Source: Jiulongibacter sediminis
GTDB lineage: Bacteria; Bacteroidota; Bacteroidia; Cytophagales; Spirosomataceae
NCBI RefSeq assembly: GCF_001306455.1
Contig: NZ_LGTQ01000005.1
Span: 1,116,001-1,180,000 of the forward strand
Reading direction: 5' to 3'
DNA: 64,000 bases
Shown: one piece after another, positions 45,382-50,725 of the stretch
Layout: each line of letters opens with the position of its first letter
Position numbering within the stretch: position 1 is the stretch's first letter
Notes under the pieces: model-generated
What the model was told of the DNA's origin: nothing
The model's database searches: none
What the model saw: only the letters and a program-made list of their open reading frames with translations
Translations under genes and position numbers: made by a program

Positions 45382-46368
45382 ATGCATTTTGTAAGTGCCA
45401 GTATTTATCATAAAGCAGTATATCTGGCTCTGAAAGAAGGGCTGTCTCCGCAGTCTATCCGGCATCATAAAGATGCTCCCGAACTTCAAAAAAGTAGTAA
45501 ATATATCCCCATCTCATTTTTGTATGATGTTTACGAAGGGGCAGATCAACAACTTTCGGCCGGATTTAGTGTAAGACAAGGCATGCAACTTGATTCTGAC
45601 GACTACGGGACGCTCGGCCTTTCCTGGAAAACCTGTTGGCTGGCCCGCGAGGTCTTTGACCGGCTGGAGCGTTTTATGATTCTGGTAACCGATCACGGCA
45701 ATATCCGATTAGAAGAATCCGGTGGTTTCACCACGCTTGAAATTGTAAGAAACCCCAATCGAAGAGGAGTGGAAATGGCCAATGAAGTTTCCTTTGTGAT
45801 GATCGCCGGAATTTTCATAGAAGTCACCGGTAAAGATATTTCACCTTCAGCAATTCAGTTCAAACACTCCGCTGCTTCGGGTCAACTGTTTGAAGACTAC
45901 TTTCAATGTAAAGTTTCTTTTGACCAGTCAAAAAATATAATTTCCTACAAAACAGCTGACATCACAGTTCCTACGCTCAAAGCTGACAAAAGTATTCATC
46001 AGTTTTTGCTGGAGCGTATGAATGAAGAGAAAGAAGGCATTTATCAAAGTGCTGATCACCTTTTGAAAGAAATCATCAGACTCATTACCGAAGCTTTACC
46101 GAGCGGAATCCCAAGTATCATTCAGGTTGCCGAATACCTTGGCCTCAGTGCAAGAACTCTTAAAAGAAGACTGGCTGACAAAGGACTCACCTTCAGAGAA
46201 CTCGTTCAGAATATTCAACAGGATGAGGCCCGAAACCTCCTCCGTAACCCTGGCCTTTCCATGGGTGAAATCGCTTTCCAAACCGGTTTCTCTGAACAAA
46301 GTGCCTTTAACCGGGCCTTCAAACGCTGGACCGGCCTCTCCCCCGCCGATTACCGAAAAAATTCCTGA
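45382..46368 (+). CDS. AraC-family transcriptional regulator
   Basis: A 328-residue regulator. Residues about 1-220 match the arabinose-binding-like N-terminal domain of the OruR/ArgR-type AraC proteins (PF12625: SAGFSVRQGMQLDSDDYGTLGLSW). The C-terminal AraC DNA-binding domain (about 235-328) has two helix-turn-helix motifs (IQVAEYLGLSARTLKRRLADKGLTF; MGEIAFQTGFSEQSAFNRAFKRWTG). Its stop is 11 bp upstream of a pair of direct repeats that look like its operator, and the following operon is its probable target. The effector is unknown. Hairpins at 45306-45321 and 45345-45364 lie before its start. Confidence 0.93.
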   Translation: MHFVSASIYHKAVYLALKEGLSPQSIRHHKDAPELQKSSKYIPISFLYDVYEGADQQLSAGFSVRQGMQLDSDDYGTLGLSWKTCWLAREVFDRLERFMILVTDHGNIRLEESGGFTTLEIVRNPNRRGVEMANEVSFVMIAGIFIEVTGKDISPSAIQFKHSAASGQLFEDYFQCKVSFDQSKNIISYKTADITVPTLKADKSIHQFLLERMNEEKEGIYQSADHLLKEIIRLITEALPSGIPSIIQVAEYLGLSARTLKRRLADKGLTFRELVQNIQQDEARNLLRNPGLSMGEIAFQTGFSEQSAFNRAFKRWTGLSPADYRKNS

Positions 46369-46379
46369 AAAGAAATCAC

Positions 46380-46469
46380 TGGCCTGAAGTGTCAAGGCAT
46401 TGGCCTCTTTGGTCAAAAAATCGGGTATGGTACCCGGTACTTTTGCTATTGAACATTAAACAATAGCAA
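46380..46469. promoter_or_regulatory. Structured operator region between the AraC gene and its likely target operon
   Basis: Two direct repeats TGGCCTN5GTCAA lie at 46380-46395 and 46401-46416, exactly 21 bp apart (two helical turns), as AraC proteins favour. Then come the palindrome CGGGTA-TGG-TACCCG (46422-46436), the -7 box (46438-46445) and an inverted repeat TTGCTATTG-N9-CAATAGCAA (46443-46469) ending two bases before the ATG at 46472. Confidence 0.65.
46438..46445 (+). promoter_or_regulatory. -7 box for the 46472 operon
   Basis: TACTTTTG fits TAnnTTTG. The downstream direct repeat ends 21 bp upstream, so a bound regulator would sit next to RNA polymerase and could replace a weak -33 element. 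Confidence 0.55.
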
Positions 46470-46471
46470 TT

Positions 46472-46843
46472 ATGAAAAAGACAAACAAATTTATGATGGG
46501 TCTCGTACTCATGGCCGGGCTAAGCTCTTGTGGTGTGAACCACAGCTGGATTCTGAATCAAAATCAAAACCAAACACAGGTACACCTGGGTGACCGAAAT
46601 TTCAAAACCCTCGGCAGAGTCCAGGGCACGGCAGAAGTAGAATATGCTTTACTTTTCGGAGGTGTCAAAAAGAAACAGCTTTACAGCAAAGCTTATGCTC
46701 AAATGCTGGAGAATGCCGGGCTGGAGCAAGGTTCAAGGGCTGTTACGAATGTTATCACCGAAGAACACCTTGGCGGTGCCCCACCCTTCTATACCAAAAG
46801 AACACTGACGGTATCAGCCAGTCTTGTGGAGTTTACTGATTAA
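46472..46843 (+). CDS. DUF6567-like lipoprotein
   Basis: A 123-residue lipoprotein with lipobox GLSSC (Cys20). The segment NFKTLGRVQGTAEVEYALLFGG and the later KAYAQMLENAGLEQGSRAVTNVITEEHLGG resemble the DUF6567 family of small Bacteroidota lipoproteins; the function of that family is not known to me. It is the first gene of the operon behind the AraC-type operator. The start codon follows a 9-bp inverted repeat by 2 bp. Confidence 0.78.
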   Translation: MKKTNKFMMGLVLMAGLSSCGVNHSWILNQNQNQTQVHLGDRNFKTLGRVQGTAEVEYALLFGGVKKKQLYSKAYAQMLENAGLEQGSRAVTNVITEEHLGGAPPFYTKRTLTVSASLVEFTD

Positions 46844-46855
46844 CCTTCCATTAAA

Positions 46856-47575
46856 ATGAACACTATTATGAAAAAGTTGGAATTCAATTCCATGACAAAA
46901 AGCCAGGTGAGATTCACCGGCTTTTTGTATCTCCTTGTCATCATTTGTGCCGGCTTCAGTCAAGGGTATGTACGGGCTAATCTGGTCGTTGCGGGTGACG
47001 CAGCGGCCACAGCAGCTAATATCCTTTCCAATGAAGGCTTATTTCGTATAGGTTTGGTCGCTGACCTCATCGCTTTTTTACTGGATGCGGTTCTATCAGT
47101 ACTTTTTTATAAAATGCTGAAACCCTATGGTCAATCGCTGGCTCTGGTATCCTCTTCGTTACGATTACTCGCACACCCGGCCATCGGTACACTCAATCTA
47201 CTGAATCATTATATGGCTTTGCATGTCTTGGGTGAAGCCGGCTTTATGCAGGCTTTTGAGCCTGCTAAGCTGGAAGCTCTCAGCCTATTTTTCATGGAAG
47301 CCCATCGCTACGGCTATCTACTGGCGGGTGGTTTCTTCGGAATACATTGCCTTCTGCTTGGAGTCCTTTTGATCAGATCGGGTTTGATTCCACGTGTCTT
47401 TGGTTTTATGATGATGATTGCCGGAATTGGTTACCTCATGGAAACCTTTGGTGACTTTCTTTTTCCCGGGAATGAGCATTGGCTCGCATGGGTGGTCGGA
47501 CTTTCGGCGGCCTTAGGTGAAGTGGAGCTTACTCTTTATATGCTCATCAAAGGAGTCAAAAAAACATCTCACTAA
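46856..47575 (+). CDS. DUF4386 membrane protein
   Basis: A 239-residue integral membrane protein with six hydrophobic segments (about 20-40, 63-85, 95-115, 140-165, 172-192, 203-225). It fits DUF4386, a family often found beside AraC regulators and small oxidoreductases in Bacteroidota. No catalytic motif is visible. The ATG at 46856 is used; further in-frame ATGs at 46868 and 46895 are possible. It lies 12 bp after the lipoprotein gene and 6 bp before the oxidoreductase. Confidence 0.8.
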   Translation: MNTIMKKLEFNSMTKSQVRFTGFLYLLVIICAGFSQGYVRANLVVAGDAAATAANILSNEGLFRIGLVADLIAFLLDAVLSVLFYKMLKPYGQSLALVSSSLRLLAHPAIGTLNLLNHYMALHVLGEAGFMQAFEPAKLEALSLFFMEAHRYGYLLAGGFFGIHCLLLGVLLIRSGLIPRVFGFMMMIAGIGYLMETFGDFLFPGNEHWLAWVVGLSAALGEVELTLYMLIKGVKKTSH

Positions 47576-47581
47576 AATTTT

Positions 47582-48543
47582 ATGGTTATGAAAGCTATCA
47601 TTAGAGAAAACTACGGAAACTCATCCATTTTACAACTCAGGGAAACCGAAAGACCGGAGCCAGGTCAAGGACAAGTCTTAATCAGAGTACTTGCCTCAGG
47701 TGTCAATAAAGCTGATTTGCATCTTTAATCGGAAAACCATTCCCCATTCGGCTCATGGCAGGGCTTATCCGCCCAAAATATAAAATACTGGGAGCTGATG
47801 TCTGTGGAATCGTGGACCGAATTGGCCCGGGAGTGACTCAGTTCAAGCCGGGCATGGAAGTGTATGGAGACTTGTCTGCATCCGGGTTTGGGAGTTTTGC
47901 TGAATTTGCGATCGCCAATGAAAACGCTTTGAATATGAAACCATCGGGTATTGGTTACAAAGAAGCCGCCTCCACTCCCATGGCCGCCATTACAGCTTTA
48001 CAAGGCCTGCGTGATCATGGAAAACTCAAGACAGGTGAAAAAGTATTGGTTATTGGAGCGGCCGGAGGTGTCGGCAGTTTTGCGATTCAAATGGCTAAGA
48101 TTCTTGGTGCTCGGGTCTCGGCAGTTTGTGGATCTTCATCGGTCTCAACTTTGCAAACAATGGGAGTACAACAGGTTTTTGACTATCAACAGAAAGATAT
48201 CACTTCTATCGACCAGAGATTTGATCTTATTTTTGATACTGCCGGTAAATATCCTTTATCTAAAATCAGGAAACTTCTGGAGCCCGGGGGCTGGTATATC
48301 TCCACCGTTTTTTCACCTTCAGCACTGCTGACAGGTCTTTGCTTTTCATCCATTTCTGATAATGCCTTTGGCGGATTCTTAGCAAAAACCAATCAGGCTG
48401 ATCTTCAATATCTCGGTAAACTGTTGGAGGAAGGAAAACTCAAACCACTGATTCACAAGACATACATACTTGATGATGTACCTGAAGCTCTCTCTGATTT
48501 AAGCAGAGGCAAGATTACCGGAAAACTGGTCATTACCATTTAA
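47582..48543 (+). pseudogene. NAD(P)-dependent quinone reductase/alcohol dehydrogenase, frameshifted
   Basis: Two frames together encode one MDR-family oxidoreductase. Frame one (47588-47728) gives MKAIIRENYGNSSILQLRE...GVNKADLHL and hits TAA at 47726. Frame two, one base back, continues IGKPFPIRLMAGLIRPKYK (ATG at 47755) and includes the cofactor-binding VIGAAGGVGSFAIQMAK and ends at 48541. The join CATCTTTAATC lacks one T relative to CAT CTT TTA ATC, which would give HLLIGKPF as in homologues. Either a real single-base deletion, or a sequence error, has broken the gene. An internal start at 47755 would lack the N-terminal 55 residues. Confidence 0.82.
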
Positions 48544-48597: not shown

Positions 48598-48736
48598 ATG
48601 TTGGACAGGATTCTGAAAAGATAAAACTTTCAGGCCATCTCAATTACATCCAGGAAATGTACGCGAGTCAAAATAAAGGCTATTAATATTCAGGAACCTT
48701 CGATTTATCTTGCAGAAAATTTGTTGCTTCACCTTT

Positions 48737-49252
48737 ATGTCATTTCGTATCAGACTTGCCGTCTTTCAAGACATCGAAGAACTGGATATACTTATCAATT
48801 CGGCCTTTCGTGGTGATTCCTCCCGAAAAGGCTGGACCACCGAAGCTGACCTTCTAGGTGGAATACGGACAGATCAAAGTCAACTAAAAACATTTATTGA
48901 AGAGCCTGACAGTGACATCTGGATCTATGAAGAAGATGGCCGGGCTTTGGGATGCATCCATTTGAGATATCGTAAGGATCACATTTATTTGGGTATGTTT
49001 ACGGTTTCTCCTTCTCACCAAGGGTTAGGAATCGGGAAAACACTAATGAAGTTTTCCGAGGAAAAGGCCATGGAATTAAAAACACCAAAAATGGAGATCA
49101 CGGTGCTTACCCTTCGCACCGACCTGATTGCCTGGTATGAGCGTCATGGATATTTCAGAACGGGAGAAATACGCCCTTTTCCAATGGATAATCCTGATTT
49201 TGGTCTGCCAAAGGTTTTTCTGGAGCTGGCCGTGCTTGTGAAAGAATTATGA
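48737..49252 (+). CDS. GNAT-family N-acetyltransferase
   Basis: A 171-residue acetyltransferase from ATG 48737 (MSFRIRLAVFQD); a TTG start 27 bp upstream gives an unlikely N-terminus. The acetyl-CoA-binding motif A is LGMFTVSPSHQGLGIGKTLMKFSEEKA near 92-117, and motif B is in WYERHGYFRTG near 143. The substrate is unknown. It is convergent with the esterase gene 53 bp away. Confidence 0.85.
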   Translation: MSFRIRLAVFQDIEELDILINSAFRGDSSRKGWTTEADLLGGIRTDQSQLKTFIEEPDSDIWIYEEDGRALGCIHLRYRKDHIYLGMFTVSPSHQGLGIGKTLMKFSEEKAMELKTPKMEITVLTLRTDLIAWYERHGYFRTGEIRPFPMDNPDFGLPKVFLELAVLVKEL

Positions 49253-49305: not shown

Positions 49306-50526
49306 CTACTGATCTGCCTTTGTTCTAAGCCTTTCTATCGCTTTGGCATAACTCTCTTCATATCCCATTTTATACTTTTTTGAGATTTCTGTAGCCTTTT
49401 CAAAAGTTGAAATAGCCAGGTCTATCTGACCGCTTTTTTCATACAATTGAGCAAGGCTGGTTAAAAGCCCCACGTAGGTAGGATAGGCTTCAGTGGCCCT
49501 TTTTAGAACTACGATGGCCTCTGCAATTCTGCCTGCTTCATGAAGCCGTGAATAAAGCTTAATGTATTCCATAGCCGGGCGTCTTGTCAATTCGCCGTAC
49601 CGGTTTAAAAGGTCTTGCTCCTGCTCGATAAATTTTTCCTTTGTAAAATCTTCTAAGGATAAGTTTGCCTTCTTTAAATCGGAAAAAATAAAGCGTAAGC
49701 CATTATAGTTTAAAAGAAGCCGGCTTTGATTATGGTCCTCATCTCCCACTTCCTCGAATTTCCACCGCAAAGCTCCGGGGGGGGTGACTTTGACCACTTC
49801 AGTAAAACGTTTTAATTCCTGTTTCATCCCCCATCCGTCATCTCCTCCGATACCGAAATAGATTGTTTTATGAAGTGTTCCTTCAGACTTGAAAAAACGT
49901 TCAGCTCTTAGTATCATCTCTTCATTATTCCACCACAAAGCGGGAGCCTGTATGATAAATGCATCAAAAAGGTCAGGATTCTCCATCAGGGCAAACGTAG
50001 CGAACAAGCCACCGAAAGAATGCCCTTCCAGAATCCGAAAAGGGTGCGTCCTGTATTTCTCTTCCACAAACGGGATGAGTTCGTCTTCCAAAAATTTCAA
50101 AAACAAAGGTGCACCCCCACTCTGAGGAATTCCCGCACCCCCAGCCGCACCATATGTATTCTCACCCGCTCTGGAAGGAGTGAAATCTTTTGCTCTGTCT
50201 AAACTTTCGATCCCTACGATAATGAGTGGTGAGATAAGCCCCGTCTCCGCCAGTAGTTCGGCCGTTGCAATGGTATGTTTGATATTAGCGAGGCCATCCA
50301 AAAGGTATAGAACCGAATAATGGGCTTTTGTTTCCTCATAGCCCTGTGGCAATGAAATGATTACCGGGCGTTCTTCATCTAAAATATCGGAGTTAAGCAT
50401 GTATCGCGTTCCCAGCCCCAAAAGCTGATTGTTTTCGTTTACGGGAATGTTCGCTGCCAACTGACCACAGGAAAAATGATTTGAAATGAGGGCAATAAAC
50501 AGAAAAGGTAATGTTCTGGCTTTCAT
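49306..50526 (-). CDS. Esterase-family alpha/beta-hydrolase with C-terminal TPR
   Basis: A 406-residue protein from ATG 50526 (MKARTLPFLFIALISNHFSCG, lipobox-like HFSC); the open frame extends 36 bp further to a TTG. The alpha/beta-hydrolase domain of the putative esterase family has YSVLYLLDG, the PFRILEGHSFGG nucleophile elbow (Ser about 170) and a histidine in GDEDHNQSR. Residues about 320-400 are tetratricopeptide-like. The minus strand contains a run of eight C (49777-49784) inside the coding region. Related proteins hydrolyse siderophores or acyl esters; the substrate here is unknown. Confidence 0.83.
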   Translation of the reverse strand: MKARTLPFLFIALISNHFSCGQLAANIPVNENNQLLGLGTRYMLNSDILDEERPVIISLPQGYEETKAHYSVLYLLDGLANIKHTIATAELLAETGLISPLIIVGIESLDRAKDFTPSRAGENTYGAAGGAGIPQSGGAPLFLKFLEDELIPFVEEKYRTHPFRILEGHSFGGLFATFALMENPDLFDAFIIQAPALWWNNEEMILRAERFFKSEGTLHKTIYFGIGGDDGWGMKQELKRFTEVVKVTPPGALRWKFEEVGDEDHNQSRLLLNYNGLRFIFSDLKKANLSLEDFTKEKFIEQEQDLLNRYGELTRRPAMEYIKLYSRLHEAGRIAEAIVVLKRATEAYPTYVGLLTSLAQLYEKSGQIDLAISTFEKATEISKKYKMGYEESYAKAIERLRTKADQ

Positions 50527-50725
50527 TGATTTTTGACTTAAGAGTACGATGAGATATTTCAATCGATGCTCAGGTTATATGATAGTGGCAAAGATCAAGG
50601 ATGGACTTTGGGGCCTATTGACCCTTCATGCCAATCATTTGACATTTCAGGCCACCGGGTTAAACTAATTACCCAAACTCTTTTCGGATCGTAATCTCTT
50701 CTTTGAAATTTGTCAAAAACATCCC

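Follow-up and report, generated by a model that had tools for sequence, protein, structure and literature searches.

The window, i.e., the whole analysed stretch of 64,000 nucleotides from Jiulongibacter sediminis, contains the gene of an AraC-family regulator directly followed, on the same strand, by a small operon for a DUF6567 protein, a DUF4386 protein and an oxidoreductase. The short region between them carries two direct repeats, a palindrome and an inverted repeat that nearly reaches the start codon. This arrangement raises the question of whether the repeats are the site through which the regulator acts on the operon, and of what becomes of RNA entering the operon from the regulator gene. 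The features concerned are:

45382..46368, + strand: AraC-family regulator (PF12625 and HTH_18; domain matches), proposed binder of both sites
46380..46416, + strand: site 1, tandem half-sites (sequence, genome scan, conservation at regulator loci)
46420..46438, + strand: terminator-like hairpin containing the 15-bp palindrome, in the promoter spacer just past araC (fold, terminator score)
46438..46445, + strand: -7 box TACTTTTG (TAnnTTTG; sequence, conserved spacing)
46443..46451, + strand: 5' arm TTGCTATTG of the inverted repeat, with 7 of 9 bases preceding the predicted transcript start (sequence, fold)
46461..46469, + strand: 3' arm CAATAGCAA, separated by 2 bp from the ATG at 46472 (sequence, fold)
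46472..46843, + strand: DUF6567 protein (PF20205; domain match), first gene of the proposed controlled operon
46856..47575, + strand: DUF4386 protein (PF14329; domain match)
47582..48543, + strand: zinc-type oxidoreductase with interrupted frame (stop at 47726-47728, open again from 47755)
48731..49252, + strand: GNAT acetyltransferase (domain match), possible last gene of the operon
49306..50562, - strand: esterase (PF00756) carrying a TPR tail, probable start codon ATG near 50526, proposed second target
50589..50596, - strand: -7-like box GATCTTTG (1 mismatch), 21 nt after site 2
50618..50654, - strand: site 2, TGGCCTGAAATGTCAA (0 mismatches) and TGGCATGAAGGGTCAA (1 mismatch), period 21 bp (window and genome scans)

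Regulator and tandem site

The regulator is a member of the AraC/XylS family (PF12833, HTH_18, 84.9 bits versus a cut-off of 33.6) and, by its N-terminal domain, of the PF12625 (Arabinose_bd) subgroup (59.9 bits versus 27.6). Its top NCBIfam match is QhpR (NF049968, residues 53-325); assignment as a QhpR equivalog was rejected, since the 165.3 bits obtained are below the curated cut-off of 250. Relatives with known structure whose match extends past the HTH are VirS (PDB 8rcx, E 3.1e-27) and the AraC-family protein of PDB 5chh (E 1.5e-27), both covering profile positions ~60-327 but distant in sequence. In Mycobacterium tuberculosis, VirS controls an operon with oxidoreductases and an esterase.

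As read directly from the sequence, site 1 consists of the half-sites TGGCCTGAAGTGTCAA (46380-46395) and TGGCCTCTTTGGTCAA (46401-46416) with a period of 21 bp, starts 11 bp past the stop codon of the regulator gene (46366-46368) and ends 21 bp before the box TACTTTTG at 46438-46445. The repeats, the two gaps (11 and 21 bp), the TAnnTTTG box, the palindrome and the inverted repeat had all been described in a first-pass annotation and match the sequence letter for letter. Taken alone, the repeat is mildly unusual and suggestive only: the 16-mer (≤2 mismatches) shows no enrichment across the window (19 occurrences versus 16.3 expected), while identical 6-N5-5 boxes with a period of 18-24 bp occur 2 times in the window, compared to none in nine and one in the tenth of 10 dinucleotide-block shuffles. 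What lifts the repeat above chance is a second tandem site in the genome, together with conservation beside orthologous regulators.

In the 4.47-Mb genome, the tandem pattern (≤3 of 22 mismatches) is found at 2 places, both inside the window, versus 0 with the reversed-pattern control. A looser pattern (18 positions, ≤3 mismatches) yields 10 places versus 2 with the reversed control: both sites match perfectly, one further place deviates at 2 positions and seven at 3, these seven including a shifted reading of site 2. Site 2, which the first-pass annotation did not mention, faces the esterase-TPR gene, and the esterase is proposed as second target.

A near orthologue of the regulator is absent in 38 relatives (best E 6e-24, 25 % identity), and a class draw at E 1e-30 returned 1 of 395 genomes, namely the window's own; conservation thus rests on more distant genomes. 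With a regulator profile of 13 rows, built from AraC-linked loci of the exact pattern scan described below, a phylum draw (E ≤1e-50) matched 11 of 395 genomes, 10 besides the window's own, and in all 11 the tandem site is present at the araC end, with 0-4 mismatches in 20 positions. Family draws added matches in 6/92, 3/79 and 19/148 genomes. Altogether 34 regulator loci were examined, including that of the window. The first-pass annotation had staked its proposal on the repeats being kept beside orthologous AraC genes, and the proposal withstood this test: counting ≤4 of 20 mismatches as a site, the site adjoins the regulator in 30/34 loci by script (-16 to +15 of the stop), or in 31/34 after re-reading of the truncated locus L169. 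Among control windows, 4 mismatches were reached in 9 of 1,594. The site is ~160 nt away in L191 and L192, and no site was found at the regulator locus L185. Seven of the 34 loci (L118, L120, L160, L161, L163, L169, L177) are the window itself or belong to genomes met through the motif first; with these left out, an adjacent site is present in 24/27 (script). In the reverse direction, a regulator orthologue is present in 17 of 18 site-bearing genomes searched (the genome of L037 left out of this count), the exception being an Acetobacter genome. Across the 30 adjacent sites, both halves retain TGGC and the initial G of GTCAA without exception, and the T preceding the second TGGC is equally invariant. 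In family f103 (L121-L125, L176), the first half-site is altered (e.g., GTCAA to GATAA).

When the GTDB species collection was scanned with the exact pattern, 84 stretches were reported, with 80 loci listed. An AraC homologue is located within the examined stretch in 25 of these 80 (tblastn), and 13, some of them Nostoc repeats, show no AraC match there. A further 42 belong to Acinetobacter/Moraxellaceae, 37 of them inside an ORF of ≥60 codons and 38 Gly-rich. The notion that all exact tandem matches represent sites was rejected, since these 42 loci (L038-L042 and 37 more) are mostly Gly-rich coding repeats of GFGGQ type, i.e., codon coincidences acting as decoys for a motif scan. Ten loci (L034, L043, L054, L055, L064, L072, L088, L089, L108, L110) from cyanobacteria and proteobacteria have exact tandem sites near distant AraC homologues (24-31 % identity), some of the sites being divergent from the regulator gene.

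That the tandem repeat merely arose by chance is hardly credible, in spite of the single motif lacking enrichment in the window, since the only other tandem site of the genome lies in the same window and the adjacency at 30 of the 34 regulator loci already contradicts it.

Promoter geometry

In a table of 36 sites, the rows of which are non-independent (two sites in some genomes, some near twins), a box with ≤2 of 6 mismatches to TAnnTTTG is located exactly 21 nt past the site in 26 cases, and of the 37 positions compared, 21 fits best in 21 cases and 26, the runner-up, in 4. This table leaves out sites overlapping or far from the AraC stop, and L126-L128, L174 and L175 are unoriented in it. 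A perfect box is found at 22 in L033 and L107, and 14 further loci of the Fulvivirga family have the box at 21 (13 loci) or 22 (L183). The five tabulated f103 sites have degenerate boxes (2-3 mismatches), TAnnTTTG is absent at position 21 in L127, L128, L081 and L056, and a -10-like hexamer was recognised by eye at the box position in L113, L046, L154 and L126.

At flavobacterial transcript starts, TAnnTTTG is reported to be located at -12 to -5 (PMC9723704), and for this reason the transcript is predicted to start at 46450. Relative to this predicted start, site 1 extends from -70 to -34. This span is also the position of araI1-I2 in E. coli. At araI1-I2 of araBAD, E. coli AraC occupies two direct half-sites (TAGC-N7-TCCATA) with a 21-bp period and an end at ~-35. 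The window half-sites (TGGC-N7-GTCAA) are likewise direct and in tandem with a 21-bp period. Unlike E. coli AraC, the regulator of the window possesses a PF12625 N-terminal domain, its target promoter a Bacteroidota-type -7 box, and its gene is co-directional and immediately upstream.

A further promoter element, TTTG, would be expected at position -33. It is absent from both promoters of the window: the TTTG inside site 1 (46408-46411) is 6 nt too far upstream, and site 2 contains none. Given a -7 box and no TTTG at -33, transcription would depend on the regulator. Site 1 displays the hallmarks of class II AraC-type sites, i.e., (i) tandem half-sites with a period of ~21 bp, (ii) a proximal half-site that borders the -35/-33 region, at a fixed distance to the box (21 nt in 26 of 36 sites) and (iii) conservation together with the regulator gene, from which we infer class II activation at the candidate sites. 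The view taken in the first-pass annotation, i.e., tandem AraC-type half-sites in class II position that are tied to the adjacent regulator and operon, is hence favoured by the spacing and by the adjacency in 30 of 34 loci. Binding so close to a promoter would also be compatible with the regulator repressing rather than activating, but the class II geometry and the missing -33 TTTG at both promoters point to activator dependence, rendering repression quite unlikely.

Palindrome and inverted repeat in the leader

Two elements downstream of site 1 had been regarded as possible extra repressor sites. One is the 15-bp palindrome CGGGTA-TGG-TACCCG (46422-46436), the fold of which amounts to -10 kcal/mol (5 of 200 shuffles equally good). 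A terminator scan of the spacer revealed 8 pairs, 4 of them G-C, followed by ACTTTTG, with 2 matches versus 0.5 expected in 401 bases, the two matches representing both strands of one palindrome. In 22 other rows compared (one a duplicate), the palindrome is absent and the longest arm is 5, for which reason it was rejected as a conserved operator; its unconserved nature and terminator-like shape right after araC speak against a repressor site.

The other element is the inverted repeat, which in the window folds with a z of -4.33, a value reached by 0 of 200 shuffles; no fold is obtained for RNA that begins at the predicted start (46450). Leaders were compiled from the window and 50 loci picked for having the site, yielding 59 with a start codon and 2 without. 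Five of the 59 were dropped, i.e., three 4-mismatch matches elsewhere in a locus, a register echo, and L147_-1500, a real site whose start was unassignable. The 54 leaders tested comprise 43 linked ones, defined by a co-directional ORF of ≥90 codons ending ≤20 nt from the site start, and 11 unlinked ones. The upstream gene of the linked leaders is araC in most cases, but not in L103 and L183_-3521.

In the 43 linked leaders, the region of the -7 box and transcript start pairs with the leader's own start-codon region at -6.08 kcal/mol versus -3.79 with swapped arms, a difference reached in 0 of 20,000 permutations. The same applies to 40 non-redundant leaders (-6.05 versus -3.74 kcal/mol; 0/20,000), the Fulvivirga family (n=20; -4.61 versus -3.01; 1/20,000), the f103 leaders (n=6; 99/20,000) and 31 leaders without f103 and distant groups (0/20,000). 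The controls gave 5,284/20,000 for the 5' arm against coding sequence and 763/20,000, a mild excess, for the spacer against the 3' arm. The pairing signal peaks with the 5' window on the -7 box and start region, a weaker excess occurring 20 nt upstream (83/4,000). Against in-locus shuffles, P ≤0.05 was obtained for 19/43 linked leaders (mean z -1.50) versus 1/11 unlinked ones (mean z -0.34). The unlinked leaders pair somewhat (-2.92 versus -1.53; 70/20,000), mainly via L159 and L171_+2986, where a co-directional gene is located 203 and 88 nt upstream, respectively. The mean fold is -6.6 for read-through leaders and -1.4 for RNA from the predicted start, a difference partly due to length. Two smaller tests gave P ≤0.05 for exact stems in 2 and wobble stems in 5 of 23 rows, and for 10 of 30 loci (mean z -1.20), some start codons of the latter set being misassigned.

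In 34/43 linked leaders, ≥5 predicted pairs reach into the start region, 267 of the 357 predicted start-region pairs lie upstream of the predicted +1, and the last base of the box is engaged in G-C (10), A-T (8), C-G (6), T-A (4) and G-T (4) pairs; these counts derive from energy-chosen predicted folds and are biased to pairing, a bias of which the permutation test is free. Since the arms change while pairing is kept across loci, RNA structure rather than a protein operator is suggested. Several linked leaders have a weak hairpin or none (L163, L169, L187, L193, L194, L168 and L171_+2507, among others), and it is absent at the site 2 promoter, whose upstream gene is divergent. Several f103 leaders (L121-L125, L176) contain a GGAGG-like ribosome site within the 3' arm of the hairpin.

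Since araC ends 11 bp before the site and the operon is on the same strand, araC RNA can run into the operon. The majority of pairs fall upstream of the predicted +1, so that masking of the start codon by folding would be confined to such read-through RNA. The inverted repeat, perhaps together with the terminator-like spacer palindrome, probably keeps araC read-through RNA unused, and RNA begun at the activated promoter would lack most of the 5' arm and be translated.

One alternative assumes that the transcript begins further upstream, the hairpin then being a normal leader element (thermosensor, riboswitch-like or for stability). It draws on the start at 46450 being a predicted one, and on the hairpin blocking the start region in any RNA that carries it. 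We regard it as unlikely, since the 5' arm would then contain the promoter's own box, and since only 1 of 11 unlinked leaders, compared to 19 of 43 linked ones, folds better than shuffles. The fixed distance of the box from the site also argues for the predicted start, flavobacterial boxes being placed at -12 to -5 (PMC9723704).

The first-pass annotation suggested that the inverted repeat preceding the start codon serves a repressor as its DNA operator. In favour of this, the arms in the window are long and perfect (matched in 0 of 200 shuffles), and the repeat overlaps the -7 box and the start of transcription, a place suited to repressor action. An operator should, however, keep its letters, whereas the arm letters vary between loci with pairing retained more than sequence, and the inverted repeat is absent at site 2 of the same genome; this function is therefore improbable.

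Returning to the hairpin as a lock on read-through RNA, the following overall scheme is proposed. One monomer of a ligand-responsive dimer probably binds to each TGGC-N7-GTCAA half-site, and the monomer on the proximal half-site would abut RNA polymerase, bringing about class II activation. The regulator would control the DUF6567-DUF4386-oxidoreductase operon (perhaps including GNAT) and, from site 2, the esterase-TPR gene. Judging from the sequence evidence, which covers the site with its spacing and conservation, its rarity in the genome and the pairing of the arms, this combination of a PF12625-type regulator on paired half-sites, class II activation of two units and predicted translational silencing of read-through RNA appears highly probable. 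For the wider proposition the chances seem evenly balanced: a widespread AraC regulon, in which the -7 box and start region form one hairpin arm and the other arm lies on the start codon, such that a promoter-embedded lock maintained by compensatory change would keep RNA from the upstream gene (mostly araC) silent and restrict translation of the operon to transcripts begun at the activated promoter. The examples of the regulon come from Bacteroidota in the broad sense, one Pyrinomonadaceae genome and one Roseovarius genome.

Target genes and relation to known systems

In relatives, the place behind the site is mostly taken by an anthrone-oxygenase/NmrA operon, unlike the operon of the window. 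In at least 18 loci, the site is followed by a gene for an NmrA-type protein, identified by eye through its ILVIGGTGKTG-like start, and usually also by one for a small anthrone-oxygenase-type membrane protein; Pfam confirmed one NmrA, two Anthrone_oxy and one DUF5367 among the target proteins. The regulator of L092 is 63 % identical to that of the window, and the order is AraC, site and DUF4386 gene (product 68 % identical to the window's). The same genome (G775; L092, L150) contains a second, paralogous regulator with its own adjacent tandem site before a different operon (anthrone oxygenase/NmrA). In L122 (2-1319) and L124 (2588-3979), oxidoreductase and DUF4386 genes are located directly upstream of araC. 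Both loci also have anthrone-oxygenase-type and NmrA-type genes downstream, i.e., both halves of the regulon in one cluster. Their oxidoreductase genes are open over the stretch compared, and the interrupted frame of the window reflects decay or sequencing error. A relative of the window esterase (57 % identity) is encoded behind a tandem site in Fulvivirga lutimaris; another site of this organism (L149, 265-1383) faces a 372-aa secreted protein, DJ-1/PfpI-like by eye.

With relatives of DUF4386, oxidoreductase and esterase clustered elsewhere, most families at the two sites of the window recur around the same regulator. Of the DUF6567/DUF4386 operon that the earlier reading linked to the site, DUF4386 has relatives clustered in three other genomes (L092, L122, L124), and DUF6567, like GNAT, is found beside none of the other sites compared. 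From the family names, one may guess at a response to quinones, aromatic ketones or esters.

A similar logic applies to the IS10/IS50 transposase and to phage T4 late genes: RNA that comes in from outside folds into a hairpin covering the start signal, whereas the native transcript, which begins within the 5' arm, escapes it. As with IS10/IS50, the leader of the window has complementary arms with the 3' arm at the translation start (34/43 linked leaders; 0/20,000 permutations). Unlike IS10/IS50 and T4, the putative lock of the window belongs to a chromosomal regulon, and its 5' arm covers the -7 box of a probably activator-dependent promoter. The AraC-type site would be a known sort of element, and the leader lock, if confirmed, a known logic in a new setting.

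A literature search retrieved no described binding site for the AraC subgroup of the regulator. The tandem half-sites provide a concrete candidate recognition motif for this subgroup, and the motif may serve a much wider one. They also tie DUF4386, DUF6567 and DUF5367, families of unknown function, to genes for anthrone oxygenase, NmrA, oxidoreductase and esterase. Should the hairpin act as proposed, the regulator gene could stand directly before its target operon without leaky expression, and the promoter itself would report where a transcript began.
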